From positions 1-22,015 of IMG/VR virus record IMGVR_UViG_3300020119_000214: a stretch of DNA of 22,015 bases; one strand, 5' to 3'. The stretch comes from a virus. A program made the translations under genes and the position numbers. The first letter of the stretch is position 1, and each line of letters opens with the position of its first letter. Under the pieces are notes generated by a model. That model worked only from the letters and a program-made list of their open reading frames with translations. It made no database searches and was not told the DNA's origin. Positions 7,963 through 20,494 of this stretch are shown here, one piece after another.

Positions 7963-8684
7963 AAGTACTTACTCTCGATCTTGAATTAACCCCCTGTACG
8001 GCGCACGTCTGGCAGCTTTGGGGGAATCAGAACGTTGCTTTGAGCCAGCTGGTGGAGTCGCAAGAGCTGCTGTGCGCGGCCTGGAAGTGGCGTGACGACT
8101 CACGGATACAGTTCCAGCGGGGCAAGAGGTTCGGCGGTGAGGCGCAGGCTTGGCTTCATGAGGCCGTTAACATGGCGGATGCGGTGGTGACCTGGAACGG
8201 CGACAAGTTCGACATACCCCACCTGAACCGCGAATTCCTGGAACACGGCTATAGCCGGCCGAAGCCTTTTGTGTCCATAGACCTGCTGAAGACCAGCCGC
8301 AAGGCTTTCCGCTTCCCCTCCAACAAGCTCGACTACGTCGCCAACAGAATTCTGGGTGTCGGCAAGATGGCCCATCAGGGCCATCAACTGTGGGTTGACT
8401 GCATGGCCGGCGATGAGGCCGCGTGGAAGGTGATGGAGGAGTACAACCGTAAAGATGTTTATATAACCGAACAGCTCTACGATCGACTGCTTCCATGGAT
8501 CACGAAGTACCCGAACCTGCGTCTTTACGATCAGCATGAGGGCTGCCCGCGGTGCGGCTCCAACAACCTCCACAAGCGCGGTTTCAAGGCTACAGCCGTC
8601 AGCAAGTTCCAGCAATACCAGTGCCAGGACTGCAAGTCCTGGTCTTACGATACGAAGCGTATAGATGCAAGCACCATGTGTTGA
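7959..8684 (+). CDS. DnaQ/YprB-like 3'-5' exonuclease with C-terminal zinc ribbon
   Basis: From ATG 7959 (GGAGAG, suitable spacing) the protein has 241 residues. An RNase H-fold exonuclease is visible: motif I D7/E9 (LTLDLELTP), motif II N80...D85 (TWNGDKFDIPHLN) and motif III Y162/D166 (EYNRKDVYI). A C-terminal zinc ribbon follows (GCPRCGS, C196/C199; CQDC, C222/C225). In phages this family is often annotated as an exonuclease and probably processes single-stranded ends. An HNH gene has been inserted directly upstream, and both copies of the first ten codons encode the same peptide. A longer frame beginning at 7908 lies inside the HNH gene and is not preferred. Confidence 0.85.
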   Translation: MKVLTLDLELTPCTAHVWQLWGNQNVALSQLVESQELLCAAWKWRDDSRIQFQRGKRFGGEAQAWLHEAVNMADAVVTWNGDKFDIPHLNREFLEHGYSRPKPFVSIDLLKTSRKAFRFPSNKLDYVANRILGVGKMAHQGHQLWVDCMAGDEAAWKVMEEYNRKDVYITEQLYDRLLPWITKYPNLRLYDQHEGCPRCGSNNLHKRGFKATAVSKFQQYQCQDCKSWSYDTKRIDASTMC

Positions 8685-9318
8685 GGAGTCCGAGCCGTGG
8701 GGCGAGGACGATATATCTAAACTAGTTTATAGTGCGGCCCGGCAGGTTCGGGGACGATTCAGCAATTACGCCGAGTTTGAAGACCTGTTGCAAGAGGCCT
8801 GGTTGGCAGTCTACACCACATCGAAGATGGCCGACTGGCAGGCACAGGGTGACCAGGGAAAGCAGCGGCTCCGCCGGCACCTGGTGAAAGCCTGCTCCCT
8901 GTACGCGCAGAAGAACAAGGCGGCCAAACTCGGCTACCGCTACGCAGATCTTTTCTTCTACTCCCCCGGTCTGCTCCGCCACATGATCTCACAGGTTCTG
9001 GAGACGATCGGCACCGACGAGCGCTTTGACTATCTGGACCGGGCACTCTTCGTGGATGTGGAAAACGCCCTCATGACGTTGAGCGACAGCGACTATCAGA
9101 TCATCTGGTGGGCGTTCAAGGGTGATCTGGATGAGGAGGAGGGCAATGCCCTCGTGGGTGAGCGTCTCGGGATTAGTGCTGATGCAGCTCGTAAGCGGGT
9201 CAATCGAGTTCTTCGCCGGCTTCAGGACCATCTTGGCGGGGAGAATCCGGTTCCGCGGCGGAAGTCGAAGACGAACGCTCAGGCTTTGGCGGAGCTCCGA
9301 ACGGCATGGGAGGGCTAA
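8665..9318 (+). CDS. Sigma-factor-like transcription protein
   Basis: This 217-residue protein has a helical region 2-like motif (YAEFEDLLQEAWLAVYTT, 35-52), typical of sigma-70 family core-binding regions. It also has a C-terminal region 4-like helix-turn-helix (ALMTLSDSDYQIIWWAF, then VGERLGISADAARKRVNRVL). The tail is basic (PVPRRKSKT). Spacing between the two regions is close to that of ECF-type sigma factors. It may redirect host RNA polymerase to phage promoters. The ATG at 8665 overlaps the exonuclease gene by 20 bases and has a modest ribosome site. A related Sig70-like HTH regulator without true sigma activity is the alternative. Confidence 0.72.
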   Translation: MQAPCVEESEPWGEDDISKLVYSAARQVRGRFSNYAEFEDLLQEAWLAVYTTSKMADWQAQGDQGKQRLRRHLVKACSLYAQKNKAAKLGYRYADLFFYSPGLLRHMISQVLETIGTDERFDYLDRALFVDVENALMTLSDSDYQIIWWAFKGDLDEEEGNALVGERLGISADAARKRVNRVLRRLQDHLGGENPVPRRKSKTNAQALAELRTAWEG

Positions 9319-11096: not shown

Positions 11097-11131
11097 GGCC
11101 CCCGGCAGAAGCCGGGGGCCTCTTTGCTTTT
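11097..11131 (+). terminator. Rho-independent terminator of the replication operon
   Basis: GGCCCCCGGC (11097-11106) pairs with GCCGGGGGCC (11111-11120) around AGAA and is followed by TCTTTGCTTTT. A perfect 10-bp stem with a T-rich tail just after the last rightward gene is a convincing terminator. The integrase stop codon from the other strand begins at 11133. Confidence 0.88.
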
Positions 11132-12639
11132 CAGCGCGGCAACGTCTCCATGAACTCTTCCAGGCTCAAACCGCTCTTGCCAGGCCAGTAGGCCACTGTG
11201 TTACCGCCAGGCAGAAGCACGACACGGAAACCCGCATCCAACAATAGATCCCGCCGCATGGGCTCAGGAGACTCCTCCCACCACTGCCCACACGCTTTGC
11301 CGGAAGGCACCTCCTCCCACCGATCCGGCTCCGCGGGCAACGCGGCCAGTTTCTCTTTTCTTACGGTGAGCGCACGCAGACGTTCAATGTACTTTTGCTG
11401 ATCGCGGATCAGGCCGGCATCCGACTCTGCCTGAAGATTTTTCAAGCCGCACTCCACAGCCTCAAGCTCTGCCATGTGGTCGCTGCCCGCGATGAACTTT
11501 TTTACAGGGCGGTCCAGGGGGCCGATGTTCTCCAGGAAGGCTTCATTGATGCGGGCGGTCAGGGGTGCTTCATTGAGCCGCACACCGCGGCAAGGCAGGA
11601 TTCCCTTATTGCGTTTACCGTAGCAAAGGTAGTGGCCGAACAGCCTGTACCCTTTGTGGATCCGCTCGGGTTGCCGATAGGCAGGACCGCCACAGATACC
11701 ACAAAAGATGATGCCGGTCAGGGGCGCGGTGTTCTTGGTGCGTGTCGGTTCCCCGCTTCGCTTAGCCAGGGCCAATTGGAGGACACGGAACTCTGATGGG
11801 GTAAGTATGCCGTCCGCAAGGATCACGGGGTCGCCCTCGGCTGTCAGGACCGGCTTGCCCTTGAATGCCTTGTGTCCCATCAATGTCACAGACCGCAGCA
11901 TCCGGCCCAACGAGGTAACCCCCCAACTGGGTGTCCCGTTCTTGTACGTGTATCCCGAGCGCGGCGAAGGCGTGCCGGCCTTGTTGAGCTGGACTACCAC
12001 TGATTGCAGGGACGCGCCGTCAAGGATGATGAGATCAACGATCTCCCAGAGGATCCGAGCCTCTTCGGGAACAATCTCCAGGGTCTTGCCGTTCGCCACA
12101 CCATCCACAATGCGAGGGATAATGCGGTAACCGTACGGGGCGGCCCCACCAGGCCAGCGAGGTTGCGTGGCAAGGTAGTTGTGCGAGGACTGAACGCGTT
12201 CCTTGGTGTTTTGTGCCTCCATCTGCGCAACAAAGGCCAGAAGCATGACGATCAGCTCGCCGATGATGTTGGTCATGTCCAGCTCGAAGGCACTACCGCC
12301 CGGACCCTCAGCGAAGATCAGTTTCTTGTTGTGCTTCTTCGCCCAGCCGGCCAGCACCTGTAGGTCATGCATGGAACGGACGATGCGGTCAAGCCGCCAA
12401 ATCACCATCACGTCGAAAGAGTTGATCTTAACAGGGTCCGTGAGCCACGGACCCAGCCCCCTCCGGTCAAACGGGCTGATCTTGGAGGCGCTGACACCAT
12501 CGTCAACGGCGTGCCCTACTGGCACCATTCCGCGGTCTGCGATAACTCGATCTTCGGCAAGCTCCTGCCGTGCAAGAGAAGTGGAGTCGTCCGTGTGGTT
12601 GGAGATGCGGCTAACCTTGAGAGCTCGAAGCACTGGCAT
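11131..12639 (-). CDS. int: Large serine recombinase (phage integrase)
   Basis: This 502-residue protein is a large serine integrase for site-specific integration and excision. The nucleophile is S10 (ALKVSRISNHTDDSTSLARQ), and the active-site arginines are in VIWRLDRIVRS (R82, R85, R88). An E-helix-type motif VAQMEAQNTKERV precedes the recombinase domain (PGGAAPYGYRI). The zinc ribbon is IFCGICGGP plus HYLCYGK and LPCRG (C313, C316, C339, C350). A coiled-coil segment around residues 400-435 (ECGLKNLQAES...) matches the synapsis/excision control motif of the family. The ATG at 12639 has AGGTGG upstream. It stands between two converging terminators and is probably transcribed on its own. Length and domains appear intact. 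Confidence 0.95.
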   Translation of the reverse strand: MPVLRALKVSRISNHTDDSTSLARQELAEDRVIADRGMVPVGHAVDDGVSASKISPFDRRGLGPWLTDPVKINSFDVMVIWRLDRIVRSMHDLQVLAGWAKKHNKKLIFAEGPGGSAFELDMTNIIGELIVMLLAFVAQMEAQNTKERVQSSHNYLATQPRWPGGAAPYGYRIIPRIVDGVANGKTLEIVPEEARILWEIVDLIILDGASLQSVVVQLNKAGTPSPRSGYTYKNGTPSWGVTSLGRMLRSVTLMGHKAFKGKPVLTAEGDPVILADGILTPSEFRVLQLALAKRSGEPTRTKNTAPLTGIIFCGICGGPAYRQPERIHKGYRLFGHYLCYGKRNKGILPCRGVRLNEAPLTARINEAFLENIGPLDRPVKKFIAGSDHMAELEAVECGLKNLQAESDAGLIRDQQKYIERLRALTVRKEKLAALPAEPDRWEEVPSGKACGQWWEESPEPMRRDLLLDAGFRVVLLPGGNTVAYWPGKSGLSLEEFMETLPR

Positions 12640-17295: not shown

Positions 17296-17304
17296 GACTC
17301 ACAT

Positions 17305-17348
17305 TAGGAGAGTTGGTCACGCTCAAGGCGTGACCTCTAGGAGAGTCG
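17305..17348. repeat. Hairpin flanked by 11-base direct repeats
   Basis: TAGGAGAGTTG (17305-17315) and TAGGAGAGTCG (17338-17348) flank an 8-bp hairpin, GGTCACGC/GCGTGACC (17315-17322 with 17328-17335). The unit lies just downstream of the antitermination-like box in the leftward direction. It may be a protein-binding or RNA-processing site. Confidence 0.6.
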
Positions 17349-17355
17349 TTATCGT

Positions 17356-17373
17356 CACTGTTCAGTTCTCAAG
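17356..17373 (-). promoter_or_regulatory. rRNA-leader-like antitermination box ahead of the leftward operon
   Basis: On the minus strand the sequence reads CTTGAGAACTGAACAGTG. From memory, this closely resembles the conserved TTGAGAACT-x-AACAGTG block in leaders and spacers of actinobacterial rRNA operons, which includes the boxA region where Nus factors act. It points into an operon full of hairpins. Upstream on the same RNA, CAGAGCCC and GGGCTCTG (17376-17384 with about 17469-17476) could pair over about 85 bases. An antitermination role is inference. Confidence 0.5.
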
Positions 17374-17523
17374 TAGCAGAGCCCTTAACCGACTGACCTA
17401 CCAACCGTTGTGCTCTTCAGCTGGTGTCTTCCCGATCGGCTTGCAGTGCTCAATCTAGACCTGTCTCAGGGCTCTGTCTATAGCCATTTTCCAGCATCTT
17501 TGCCGACAACACCTTGATGATAG

Positions 17524-17574
17524 GCCGATTCTAGCCTCTTACTAAGCCTCTTAATCGGCACGCACAGGCGTGCC
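17524..17574. repeat. Overlapping inverted repeats
   Basis: GCCGATT (17524-17530) pairs with AATCGGC (17553-17559), and GGCACGC (17557-17563) pairs with GCGTGCC (17568-17574). The two stems share three bases, so they are mutually exclusive at their junction, a layout seen in RNA switches. This may be chance. Confidence 0.45.
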
Positions 17575-17759
17575 CTCGGGCCGGCCGATCATGAACTACT
17601 ACGGTCACCAAACTATTCATAACATGAACTATTCTCATGTCTGCGATCATGGTGTTTGTTACTGCAAACGCGCCTGAACGGCGCGCCGAGTGTCTTTAAG
17701 GATCATGAACGAGCCCAGACCAGGCCGGCCCGCGCGCGCACGCGCGAGAACGCCCCCAA

Positions 17760-17856
17760 ACCAAGATCGTTGATCTTGGTAATCCGCATAACTTACATTA
17801 TGCGGAGTCGTCGGCCCAGGTCAGCGAGCCGCCGGCCATGATCGTTGATCATGGCC
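17760..17856. repeat. Three palindromes, two with the same GATC-GTT-GATC apex
   Basis: ACCAAGATC-GTT-GATCTTGGT (17760-17780) and GGCCATGATC-GTT-GATCATGGCC (17834-17856) share the apex and loop. They differ by a compensated A:T to T:A pair and in the outer stem. Between them TCCGCATAA/TTATGCGGA (17783-17791 with 17798-17806) forms another 9-bp stem. A looser relative, GCAAGATC...GATCTTGC, occurs at about 17914-17949. Compensated changes suggest the paired structure matters. Confidence 0.7.
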
Positions 17857-18069
17857 CTCCACAGTGTCAGCGAGTTGACATCAAGACGTTGAGATGCCCT
17901 GACCTGCACCTTTGCAAGATCATTTGTCTCAGCATTCGGACGATCTTGCCGGCCCACAAGATCAACAACCGGCCGATGTTAAAGCCGTGCGGTGTGGTGT
18001 GGTGCTGCAAACCTCAAAAATTTTCCTAGGATTCCCGCCCAGCCCCATGTCCGATCCGACCGATATGGG

Positions 18070-18169
18070 CGTTACCTGAAAGGTAACGGTTAGGTCACTA
18101 GATAAGTATGCGTTAGTTGGACATAGGGGGACAGACCGACTCTAGTTTGATAACGATTTGGTAACGATT
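18070..18169. promoter_or_regulatory. Operator-like GTAACG repeats
   Basis: CGTTACC-TGAAA-GGTAACG (18070-18088) is a perfect 7-bp inverted repeat. Downstream, TAACGATT occurs twice (18151-18158 and 18162-18169) with an 11-base period. The repeats precede the TATAAT box at 18211, so they could bind a repressor or activator of the rightward structural operon. The 11-base spacing also appears in the GTTACA repeats at 2208-2224. No repressor gene is visible in the window. Confidence 0.5.
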
Positions 18170-18178
18170 CGATTTACC

Positions 18179-18216
18179 CGCGTCCGAGACGCGATTTTGG
18201 ACGCCCTATATATAAT
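18179..18216 (+). promoter_or_regulatory. Short hairpin followed by a TATAAT element
   Basis: CGCGTC/GACGCG (18179-18184 with 18188-18193) is followed by ATTTTGG, a weak terminator-like pattern. Then comes a perfect TATAAT (18211-18216). I find no matching -35 hexamer at 16-18 bases. If used, the promoter may depend on an activator or an alternative sigma factor. Transcription would run into the hairpin array and the terminase. Confidence 0.4.
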
Positions 18217-18242
18217 GGGGGTATCCACAGTTGTGTCTTAGA

Positions 18243-18543
18243 GCAACCGGAGCGCTAGCGGAGGTTGCGGGAGGGCGCTCCGGTTGCAAAGGGCGGGCCA
18301 CAAAGCCCGCCCTGATCTGATAGGTAGGCCGGCCCTTGAAGGCCGGCCTTAGACCGGTTGATAGAAGGCGGCCCTTAAAGGCCGCCCATTCCTGGTTCCA
18401 GTGAGCCCGGGGCTTCAAGGCCCCGGGCAGAGTATAGAGGCCGCCGGTACTGACATGAGGCGGCCGATCGCGAGCCGCTCCCCGCCGCGGCTCGCTCTAT
18501 AGGGGCGATCCCCTAAATTGCCCTGCCCACGCCCTTCGGCGTG
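18243..18543. repeat. Tandem array of about nine hairpins upstream of the terminase
   Basis: Stems, in order: 18243-18255/18275-18287 (13 bp), 18291-18298/18305-18312, 18326-18334/18341-18349, 18367-18373/18380-18386, 18405-18413/18420-18428, 18439-18445/18459-18465, 18470-18478/18487-18495, 18501-18505/18510-18514, and 18528-18533/18538-18543. Three consecutive hairpins with different stems have almost the same loop, CTTGAA, CTTAAA and CTTCAA, followed by GGCC. The stems are too close together to be independent terminators, and none has a U-tract. No coding frame fits. This is a compact structured element of unknown function. Confidence 0.75.
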
Positions 18544-18565
18544 CCCTGAAGAAATCACGTTCACT

Positions 18566-20494
18566 GTGCCCAAACAATTCTCCACCGAGGACGCCAAGAA
18601 AATCGTCTTGGACAAGCTGCGTGCCGGGTGGAGTATTCAGCGTGCCTGTGAGTATGTGGGCGTCACCGTCAAGACCTACGAATACTGGTTGTACCGTGCC
18701 GCGGATCCTAAGCAACGTCAGTGGTTCCGTGATGAGGTCGACCGTATCCGCCGCAAGCAAACCATGGCCGGCCCGGCTGATGTGCCGGACTTCGAGACCT
18801 TCTCGAACGTCTATCTGGGCAACCGTCTGTTTGAGCACCACTTGCAGTGGCTCGATCTTCTGGAGGGCAATGAGCCCCGATCGCTCCACCCCGCGCAGAC
18901 CTACATCGCCGGCCACAAAAATCTTCTGCTGATCAACACGCCCCCGCACCATGCCAAGTCTGAGATGTTCTGTCAGAACTATGTGACCTGGCGTATCGTA
19001 CAGGATCCGAACATCCGTGTGCTTCTGGTGTCTGCGTCGGCTGACCGCGCTAAGAAGAACCTGGACGGCATCAAGAACCGCCTGGACAAGGATGTGATGG
19101 TTTACCGTGATCTGAAAGATCACTTTGCGCCGGCTGAGGGCTACAACTCCAAGGATGCCAAGTGGACCTCAGACATGATTCTGATCAATCCGGCGATCCG
19201 TCCGCGCAACACTTCCGGTCACCCCACGGTGCAGGCTCTCGGTATCCGCAAGAAAATCTATGGTGCACGTGCTGACCTGATCATCCTGGACGACTGTGCC
19301 GACCTCGACAACGCCCATGAGTATCAGAAGCAGATCGAGTGGATCCAGGCAATCATCAACTCCCGTCTGGAGCCGGGCACCGGCAAACTGATCATCGTTG
19401 GGACGCGCCTTGCGGCGCAGGACCTCTATTCGGAGTTGCGCAAGCCCGAGTGGTATGTGTCCGGCGAGTCCCCGTGGACGTATCTGTCGCAGCCCGCCGT
19501 GTTGGAGATGACGGATAATCCGGAGACGTGGAAGACCCTCTGGCCAAAGACGAACGTGGCTCCAGCCGGCCTTGAGGTTCACGAGCCTGACGCACAGGGT
19601 TTGTACCCGATGTGGACCGGTCCCGCCTTGGCGGAGAAGCGCAACAACATGTCCGCGGAGATGTGGTCCCGTGTGTACATGCAGGCGCAGATCTCGCAGT
19701 CAACCACGTTCACGCAACAGGAGATCGATGGCTGCACCAACGGAAGACGATTCCCTGGCGTCATTCAAGCCGGCGTTCCCGGACACAGACCAGAAGGTAT
19801 GGCAGGTCTTTACGTTGTCGCAGGACTGGATCCGGCCGCTACCAACTATACGGCAATGGTCGTCGTGGGCGCAGATCTTTCCACAGGCAGACGTTACCTC
19901 TTGGATGTCTGGAACCAGCACGGAGCTTTACCGGCGCAAACCGCTGCCGTGATGAAGGAGTGGACCAGGCGTTACGGTATCTCTGAGTGGCGCATTGAGT
20001 CCAACGCCTATCAGGCGTCCATTCTCCAAGATGAGGATCTGCGTTCATGGATGGCGTCACGGTCGGTTCGGATGAGCGCGCACACCACCGGCAAGAACAA
20101 GTGGGACAACCAGTGGGGCGTGGCGACGATGGCCAACCTCTTCAAGGGCTGGGAGCAGGGATACAACGCCTTGGAGCTGCCTTCCCGCCGGGGCCATCCT
20201 GGAATCCAATCCCTTGTGGAACAGCTGGTTGCCTGGTACCCCACGCCCAGCATGAACCGGGCACCTGTCCAAGATACAGTGATGGCGCTGTGGTTTACGG
20301 AGATTCGTTGCCGTGAGCTGCTCGACCAGCAGGATGGTTCTTCCCATTGGGATCAGGGTTGGTTGAGTCCTCGCGAACGCGAGGAACAGGTGACGCTCAA
20401 TATCGACTGGTACAGCATGTCGCAGGGCAGGTGGGAGGAACCTCCCGAATTGGAGGCCCCCGTGATTTCTAACCCCGCGAGGTGGTGGGAGTAG
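18566..20494 (+). CDS. terL: Terminase large subunit with N-terminal helix-turn-helix
   Basis: This is the packaging ATPase-nuclease. The first 60 residues from GTG 18566 form a helix-turn-helix like that of small terminases (RAGWSIQRACEYVGVTVKTY). The ATPase has INTPPHHAKSE (123-133, Walker A position) and ADLIILDDCAD (D242/D243, Walker B). The RNase H-like nuclease shows VAGLDPA (D422), WRIESNAY (E478) and PVQDTVMALW (D570). The 642-residue length is larger than many TerL proteins because of the N-terminal domain. The frame is open to TTG 18518, but that extension overlaps the last hairpin; GTG 18566 lacks a strong Shine-Dalgarno sequence, so the start is uncertain. No separate small terminase is seen upstream. 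It overlaps the portal start by one base (TAGTG). Confidence 0.92.
   Translation: MPKQFSTEDAKKIVLDKLRAGWSIQRACEYVGVTVKTYEYWLYRAADPKQRQWFRDEVDRIRRKQTMAGPADVPDFETFSNVYLGNRLFEHHLQWLDLLEGNEPRSLHPAQTYIAGHKNLLLINTPPHHAKSEMFCQNYVTWRIVQDPNIRVLLVSASADRAKKNLDGIKNRLDKDVMVYRDLKDHFAPAEGYNSKDAKWTSDMILINPAIRPRNTSGHPTVQALGIRKKIYGARADLIILDDCADLDNAHEYQKQIEWIQAIINSRLEPGTGKLIIVGTRLAAQDLYSELRKPEWYVSGESPWTYLSQPAVLEMTDNPETWKTLWPKTNVAPAGLEVHEPDAQGLYPMWTGPALAEKRNNMSAEMWSRVYMQAQISQSTTFTQQEIDGCTNGRRFPGVIQAGVPGHRPEGMAGLYVVAGLDPAATNYTAMVVVGADLSTGRRYLLDVWNQHGALPAQTAAVMKEWTRRYGISEWRIESNAYQASILQDEDLRSWMASRSVRMSAHTTGKNKWDNQWGVATMANLFKGWEQGYNALELPSRRGHPGIQSLVEQLVAWYPTPSMNRAPVQDTVMALWFTEIRCRELLDQQDGSSHWDQGWLSPREREEQVTLNIDWYSMSQGRWEEPPELEAPVISNPARWWE

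Follow-up and report, generated by a model that had tools for sequence, protein, structure and literature searches.

A conserved hairpin array between the predicted late promoter and the terminase gene of a soil podovirus: a putative structured 5' leader

Genomic context

The window analysed here is the whole 22,015-nucleotide stretch of the virus record IMGVR_UViG_3300020119_000214, a soil podovirus related to Streptomyces podoviruses. It encodes a terminase, portal, DNA polymerase, helicase, primase, exonuclease, serine integrase and a sigma-like protein. Among cultured phages its nearest relatives belong to the Beephvirinae (cluster BF), podoviruses of Streptomyces with a terminase identity of 45%. 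BF phages are podoviruses with direct terminal repeats of 253-265 bp (PMC9753666, PMC13097060); in Percastrophe (L022) the repeat occupies positions 1-265, with a second copy at the right end, and the terminase gene starts at 668. The serine integrase of the window is large (11131-12639, minus strand); the cultured BF phages are reported to be lytic and to be devoid of an integrase. The features that surround the hairpins, together with the sigma-like gene, are as follows.

8665..9318, plus strand: sigma-70-like protein (phrog sigma families; Pfam sigma70 regions 2 and 4 below the cut-off)
17967..17995, plus strand: CAACCGGCCGATGTTAAAGCCGTGCGGTG, by extrapolation the counterpart of a BF-phage signature near the right end of the terminal repeat
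18180..18204, no strand assigned: inverted repeat GCGTCC-N13-GGACGC, directly 5' of the -10-like element; candidate activator or operator site
18207..18221, plus strand: late promoter core TATATATAATGGGGG, with transcription predicted to start at about 18223
18566..20494, plus strand: terminase large subunit, the first late gene, with an N-terminal helix-turn-helix (phrog_38, E 1.3e-62)

The terminase matches Pfam Terminase_6C and, weakly, HTH_23, and its start at GTG 18566 agrees with the M-P-(P)K starts of its relatives. In Streptomyces phage JXY1 (L029, 902-2876) the annotation splits the terminase into two hypothetical proteins, probably because of a frameshift or a sequencing error. A further terminase relative (L153, 41%) lies in the genome of Phytoactinopolyspora halophila, possibly in a prophage, with upstream hairpins of 11-12 bp.

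The promoter core TATATATAATGGGGG has no second match in the window at up to three mismatches, and the relatives that were checked have one comparable site each, ahead of the terminase gene. In BF phages the late promoter-like motif takes the form TATATATA(A/C)T. The inverted repeat upstream of the promoter has a counterpart, GTGTCC..GGACAC, in a large clade of uncultured relatives. Palindromes of the CRP type (TGTGA-N6-TCACA) precede the late promoter in L024, L026, L028, L057 and L059, which comprise BF phages and some uncultured phages. The sigma-70-like protein of the phage is a candidate reader of the late promoter. It is homologous to the product of L022 36126-36806 (22% identity, E 6e-10), which is annotated merely as an HTH DNA-binding protein.

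The hairpin array

Nine hairpins, all on the plus strand, fall between the promoter core and the GTG start codon.

18243..18287, plus strand: hairpin 1, 13-bp stem with a 19-nt loop
18290..18313, plus strand: hairpin 2, 9 bp, AGGGCGGGC-CACAAA-GCCCGCCCT
18326..18349, plus strand: hairpin 3, 9 bp, AGGCCGGCC-CTTGAA-GGCCGGCCT
18367..18386, plus strand: hairpin 4, 7 bp, GGCGGCC-CTTAAA-GGCCGCC
18405..18428, plus strand: hairpin 5, 9 bp, GCCCGGGGC-TTCAAG-GCCCCGGGC, the loop being the reverse complement of that of hairpin 3
18439..18465, plus strand: hairpin 6, 7 bp, GGCCGCC with GGCGGCC, 13-nt loop
18470..18495, plus strand: hairpin 7, 9 bp, GCGAGCCGC-TCCCCGCC-GCGGCTCGC
18500..18515, plus strand: hairpin 8, 6 bp, TAGGGG-CGAT-CCCCTA
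18528..18543, plus strand: hairpin 9, 6 bp, CACGCC-CTTC-GGCGTG, 22 nt ahead of the start codon

The first-pass annotation had reported nine hairpins within 300 bases in front of the terminase gene, and they are present where it placed them, far in excess of chance. Positions 18243-18543 hold six perfect stems of 7 bp or more, whereas 1000 dinucleotide shuffles gave a mean of 0.51 and a maximum of four. For such stems they form the densest 301-nt stretch of the window. The minimum free energy of the array is -192.5 kcal/mol, which corresponds to z = -8.0 relative to shuffled sequences on the plus strand and -7.3 on the minus strand. The statement that the array lacks a coding frame also holds: no plus-strand open reading frame of at least 40 amino acids lies within it, and the two small minus-strand frames (70 and 66 amino acids) have no Pfam match. 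In hairpin 1 an alternative short pairing joins GCAACC at 18243 with a GGTTGC within the loop; by inspection, the same alternative occurs in L001, L006, L009 and L014.

Other details of the earlier description needed amendment. Of three adjacent loops said to share the form CTT(G/A/C)AA, CTTGAA and CTTAAA are borne out, but the third, when its hairpin is fully paired, is TTCAAG rather than CTTCAA. Their stems do not change completely, since the CTTGAA and CTTAAA hairpins have a GGCC core in common. Nor is the packing end to end: the hairpins resemble beads spaced at about 36-41 nt from start to start, with linkers of 12-18 nt in the middle of the array.

No tRNA or tmRNA gene was found by ARAGORN, which disposes of a tRNA or tmRNA array. 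An array of intrinsic terminators was likewise rejected: there is no plus-strand terminator-like site in 17300-18700 and no T-run after any hairpin. Searches of the window and of the leaders of its relatives against Rfam gave no family at the gathering threshold and only far-sub-threshold matches under relaxed settings, and the leader has no nucleotide similarity to phage records.

Conservation among related phages

The order promoter, hairpins, terminase recurs in three clades, namely the close soil relatives, the cultured BF phages and the large uncultured clade, and is kept across terminases that are 45-89% identical. Stems of at least 7 bp number 53, 21 and 54 in the three clades, against 4.0, 3.0 and 2.5 in shuffled sequences. 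The close soil relatives (terminase identity 77-89%) have the same layout with other stem sequences, and the evidence within this clade, to which the window belongs, is that hairpins are repeatedly present with different stems; in one sub-branch of the soil phages (L016-L019) strong hairpins are scarce. BF phages carry an 8-bp hairpin with the loop CTCAA, CTGAA or TTCAG and a second hairpin of 6 bp, and the folding of their leaders as a whole is weak (mean z -1.9). In the uncultured clade, with terminases 45-49% identical to that of the window, a leader of 155-180 nt holds four hairpins; the first starts no more than a few bases from where the transcript is predicted to begin, and the loops of the first and last are exactly 12 nt long in 31 of 33 non-redundant loci. 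Kissing of these two 12-nt loops was considered and rejected by inspection, being good in L067 and absent in the others. Across relatives the number of hairpins ranges from one to seven by one counting criterion, the leader from about 155 to 350 nt, and the stem sequence varies freely.

Covariation, which the first-pass annotation had proposed as a check, shows stems changing by two-sided Watson-Crick substitutions. For the uncultured clade, RNAalifold recovered three helices, with eight pairs changed on both sides, from a MAFFT alignment that was built without reference to structure, so that the recovery was blind. A MAFFT alignment of the BF leaders puts the hairpins in the wrong place, and hairpins were therefore compared one by one. 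Three such per-hairpin sets show two-sided changes at 6/7, 4/7 and 5/8 pairs, far above shuffled and slid controls, although these sets were picked as hairpins and the percentage paired is partly a matter of construction. Helices are thus retained across relatives by changes on both sides, as is expected of a structured leader RNA.

A covariance model of the uncultured clade (R1) finds one match per genome, located at the terminase. It gave no match to the window at E<=10, and L004 and L007 matched only with E values of 2.3 and 5.7. The window and the uncultured clade have the same architecture, and the case for their homology, which is not proven, comes from position and architecture.

Selection on structure, as the first-pass annotation had suggested, is supported, because hairpins persist at one place across three diverged clades while their stems are altered on both sides. 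Neither finding that it had named as fatal to the idea, a lack of stem conservation in relatives or translation of the region, was made.

RNA or DNA as the working form

The stems change almost purely from one Watson-Crick pair to another. G-U pairs are nearly absent: in the stems of the two hairpins with 12-nt loops there are no G-T pairs among 62 leaders, and a comparison of the strands gave four G-T against two A-C mismatches, which points to neither strand. As judged by fold z-scores, neither strand folds better than the other in any of the clades. Loops occur in both orientations within the window (CTTGAA and TTCAAG), and one stem bears its loop either way round in different phages (CCAGCCCC-CTGAA-GGGGCTGG in L028, CCAGCCCC-TTCAG-GGGGCTGG in L051). 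The 12-nt loops of L065, L072 and L070 are also inverted relative to the rest of the uncultured clade.

These properties bring in the main overall rival to an RNA function, in which the inverted repeats would function in the DNA, as cruciforms or as single-stranded hairpins, either in replication or in the copying of the terminal repeat during concatemer processing near the left end. It is favoured by stems that are purely Watson-Crick and show hardly any wobble intermediates, by the equal folding of both strands, by the inversion of loops and whole hairpins and by the nearby terminal repeat. The concatemer-junction hairpin of T7 is comparable, being likewise an inverted repeat near the direct terminal repeat of a podovirus, but it differs in lying on the other side of the repeat and in being a single inverted repeat that works at the DNA level. 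Against such a role, the hairpins occupy the leader from near the transcript start, their density is lower upstream, nearer the ends, and BF phages have a few basal T.G pairs, as would suit RNA. Template switching, whose mutational footprint comprises flipped loops and wobble-free double changes, accounts for both features without any DNA function (PMC8794818), and could maintain perfect stems even if individual pairs were not under selection. We regard a DNA-level role as rather unlikely. Its more explicit form, with strand-symmetric, sequence-free hairpins that are kept by template switching, occasionally flipped and used in replication or in terminal-repeat copying during packaging, is unlikely to a slightly greater degree.

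Since both strands fold equally well, sequence alone does not tell an RNA from a DNA form. Position favours RNA, because the hairpins start close to where the transcript is predicted to begin, and their density downstream of the promoter is two to three times that upstream. We infer that RNA is the working level.

Packaging and protein binding

The first-pass annotation had offered a packaging recognition element as one role for the array. A packaging site (pac) bound by the N-terminal helix-turn-helix of the terminase would suit an array that adjoins the terminase gene, 200-350 bp from the BF terminal repeat. The mature ends of the BF phages, however, lie at 1/265, upstream of both promoter and hairpins, while the hairpins are at 480-620; judged in these relatives, the array neither coincides with nor abuts the mature ends. 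It also lacks the common conserved sequence required of a DNA-binding site. Better conserved is an end signature that precedes the hairpins by about 170-270 bp. In BF phages this signature falls within the left direct terminal repeat, about 25 nt from its right end, as with TTGTTAAAC near position 235 of L022, where the repeat spans 1-265. The signature, CAACCGG..TGTTAAAC or GACCCGGGGGTTGTTAAACG, is kept in the clades that were examined, 330-630 nt ahead of the terminase, and may mark the packaging end in uncultured relatives also. Judged by their contig ends, complete-looking relatives were classed as linear, without end repeats. Because the BF ends precede the hairpins by more than 200 bp and the better conserved signature is located there too, we consider that the array is very unlikely to be a packaging terminus.

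Additional hairpins are present at 17755-17860 of the window, CCAAGATCGTTGATCTTGG and CGGCCATGATCGTTGATCATGGCC, which have the centre GATCGTTGATC in common but differ in their arms and may be part of the terminal repeat. A protein-binding array, a second role suggested earlier, might also account for the hairpins, but their variable and inverted loops weigh against it. Free variation in stems, loop orientation and hairpin number disfavours any sequence-specific reader.

Antitermination and small RNAs

The main rival at the RNA level is antitermination of the kind known from the put sites of HK022, in which hairpins of the nascent RNA would engage the elongating polymerase close to the promoter, so that it reads through terminators along a late operon of about 27 kb. 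The hairpins are promoter-proximal, each of the relatives checked has one late promoter, the late operon is long and, in L022, a terminator-like hairpin lies inside it, following the capsid gene. No rrn-like boxA motif was found in the late leader of the window. A separate observation concerns the early leftward region of L022, where TTTGAGAACTC (44838-44848, minus strand) resembles the actinobacterial rRNA antitermination leader (NusA/boxA region). HK022 putL consists of two stem-loops just downstream of PL and works without proteins (PMC9378689). Like the array in our reading, putL and putR are transcribed soon after a phage promoter and before a long operon. They are, however, elements of about 70 nt in lambdoid early operons, with two stems and required bases, unlike the one to nine hairpins of free sequence that precede late genes here. 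The fixed two-stem fold with conserved required bases that characterizes put (PMC9378689) is not found in these leaders, which differ in their stems, in their loops and loop orientation and in the number of hairpins. Such a mechanism is improbable in our judgement, though worth keeping in view.

The remaining role suggested by the first-pass annotation was a non-coding RNA. A discrete small RNA cut from the leader could act in trans as a regulator, a packaging RNA or a trigger or decoy of host defence. The structure is strong and compact, and there is a precedent for structured RNA from terminase genes (PMC10686824). The cabRNA of staphylococcal phages resembles the array in being a structured RNA of the terminase region, but it derives from the terS/terL coding sequence and triggers CBASS, whereas the array would be an untranslated leader. 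Evidence for a discrete species does not extend beyond structure: no terminator follows the array, neither a 3' end nor a base-pairing sequence is conserved, and there is no Rfam match. We therefore think a small RNA highly improbable, the least probable of the alternatives considered.

A putative protective leader

The array sits between the late promoter and the first late gene, and for this reason we read it as a 5' untranslated leader of the late mRNA, a role absent from the three that had been listed earlier. Specifically, we propose that it acts in cis through stable beads and that its role is most likely protective. This is our preferred reading; it is tentatively held, and quite possibly correct.

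RNA polymerase, probably with the phage's own sigma-like protein, would initiate at about 18223 and transcribe the hairpin region. The nascent RNA of the late transcript, which would encode packaging and structural functions, would fold into independent GC-rich stem-loops joined by short linkers ahead of the terminase start codon. The hairpins would act mainly as stable double-stranded beads rather than through the sequence of their stems, a proposal made because stem sequence, loop orientation and hairpin number vary freely while the hairpins stay. Most likely the beads would shield the 5' part of the long late mRNA from nucleases and would stop it from pairing with the ribosome-binding region.

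In support of a protective role, which is suggested by analogy, we note that stem-loops at the 5' end stabilize the ompA, papA and aprE mRNAs, examples among those cited in PMC3997798. In ompA, papA and Bacillus aprE, as in the leader proposed here, a 5'-proximal stem-loop lies in the untranslated leader and its sequence is of little importance. Those leaders have one or two hairpins, whereas the present case is an array with a predicted stabilizing effect.

Implications

The array appears to be a real, conserved and previously undescribed structured leader, of a known kind but in a new variant, with a function that we propose to be protective. We found no Rfam entry and no published description for it. 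The element is conserved in a podovirus lineage that is widespread, related terminases being encoded on hundreds of IMG/VR contigs. Its presence in cultured BF phages of Streptomyces makes its role directly testable. It also offers a phage example of inverted loops and of stems in which nearly all changes are paired Watson-Crick substitutions, and so provides a natural test of template switching as the process that maintains hairpins.
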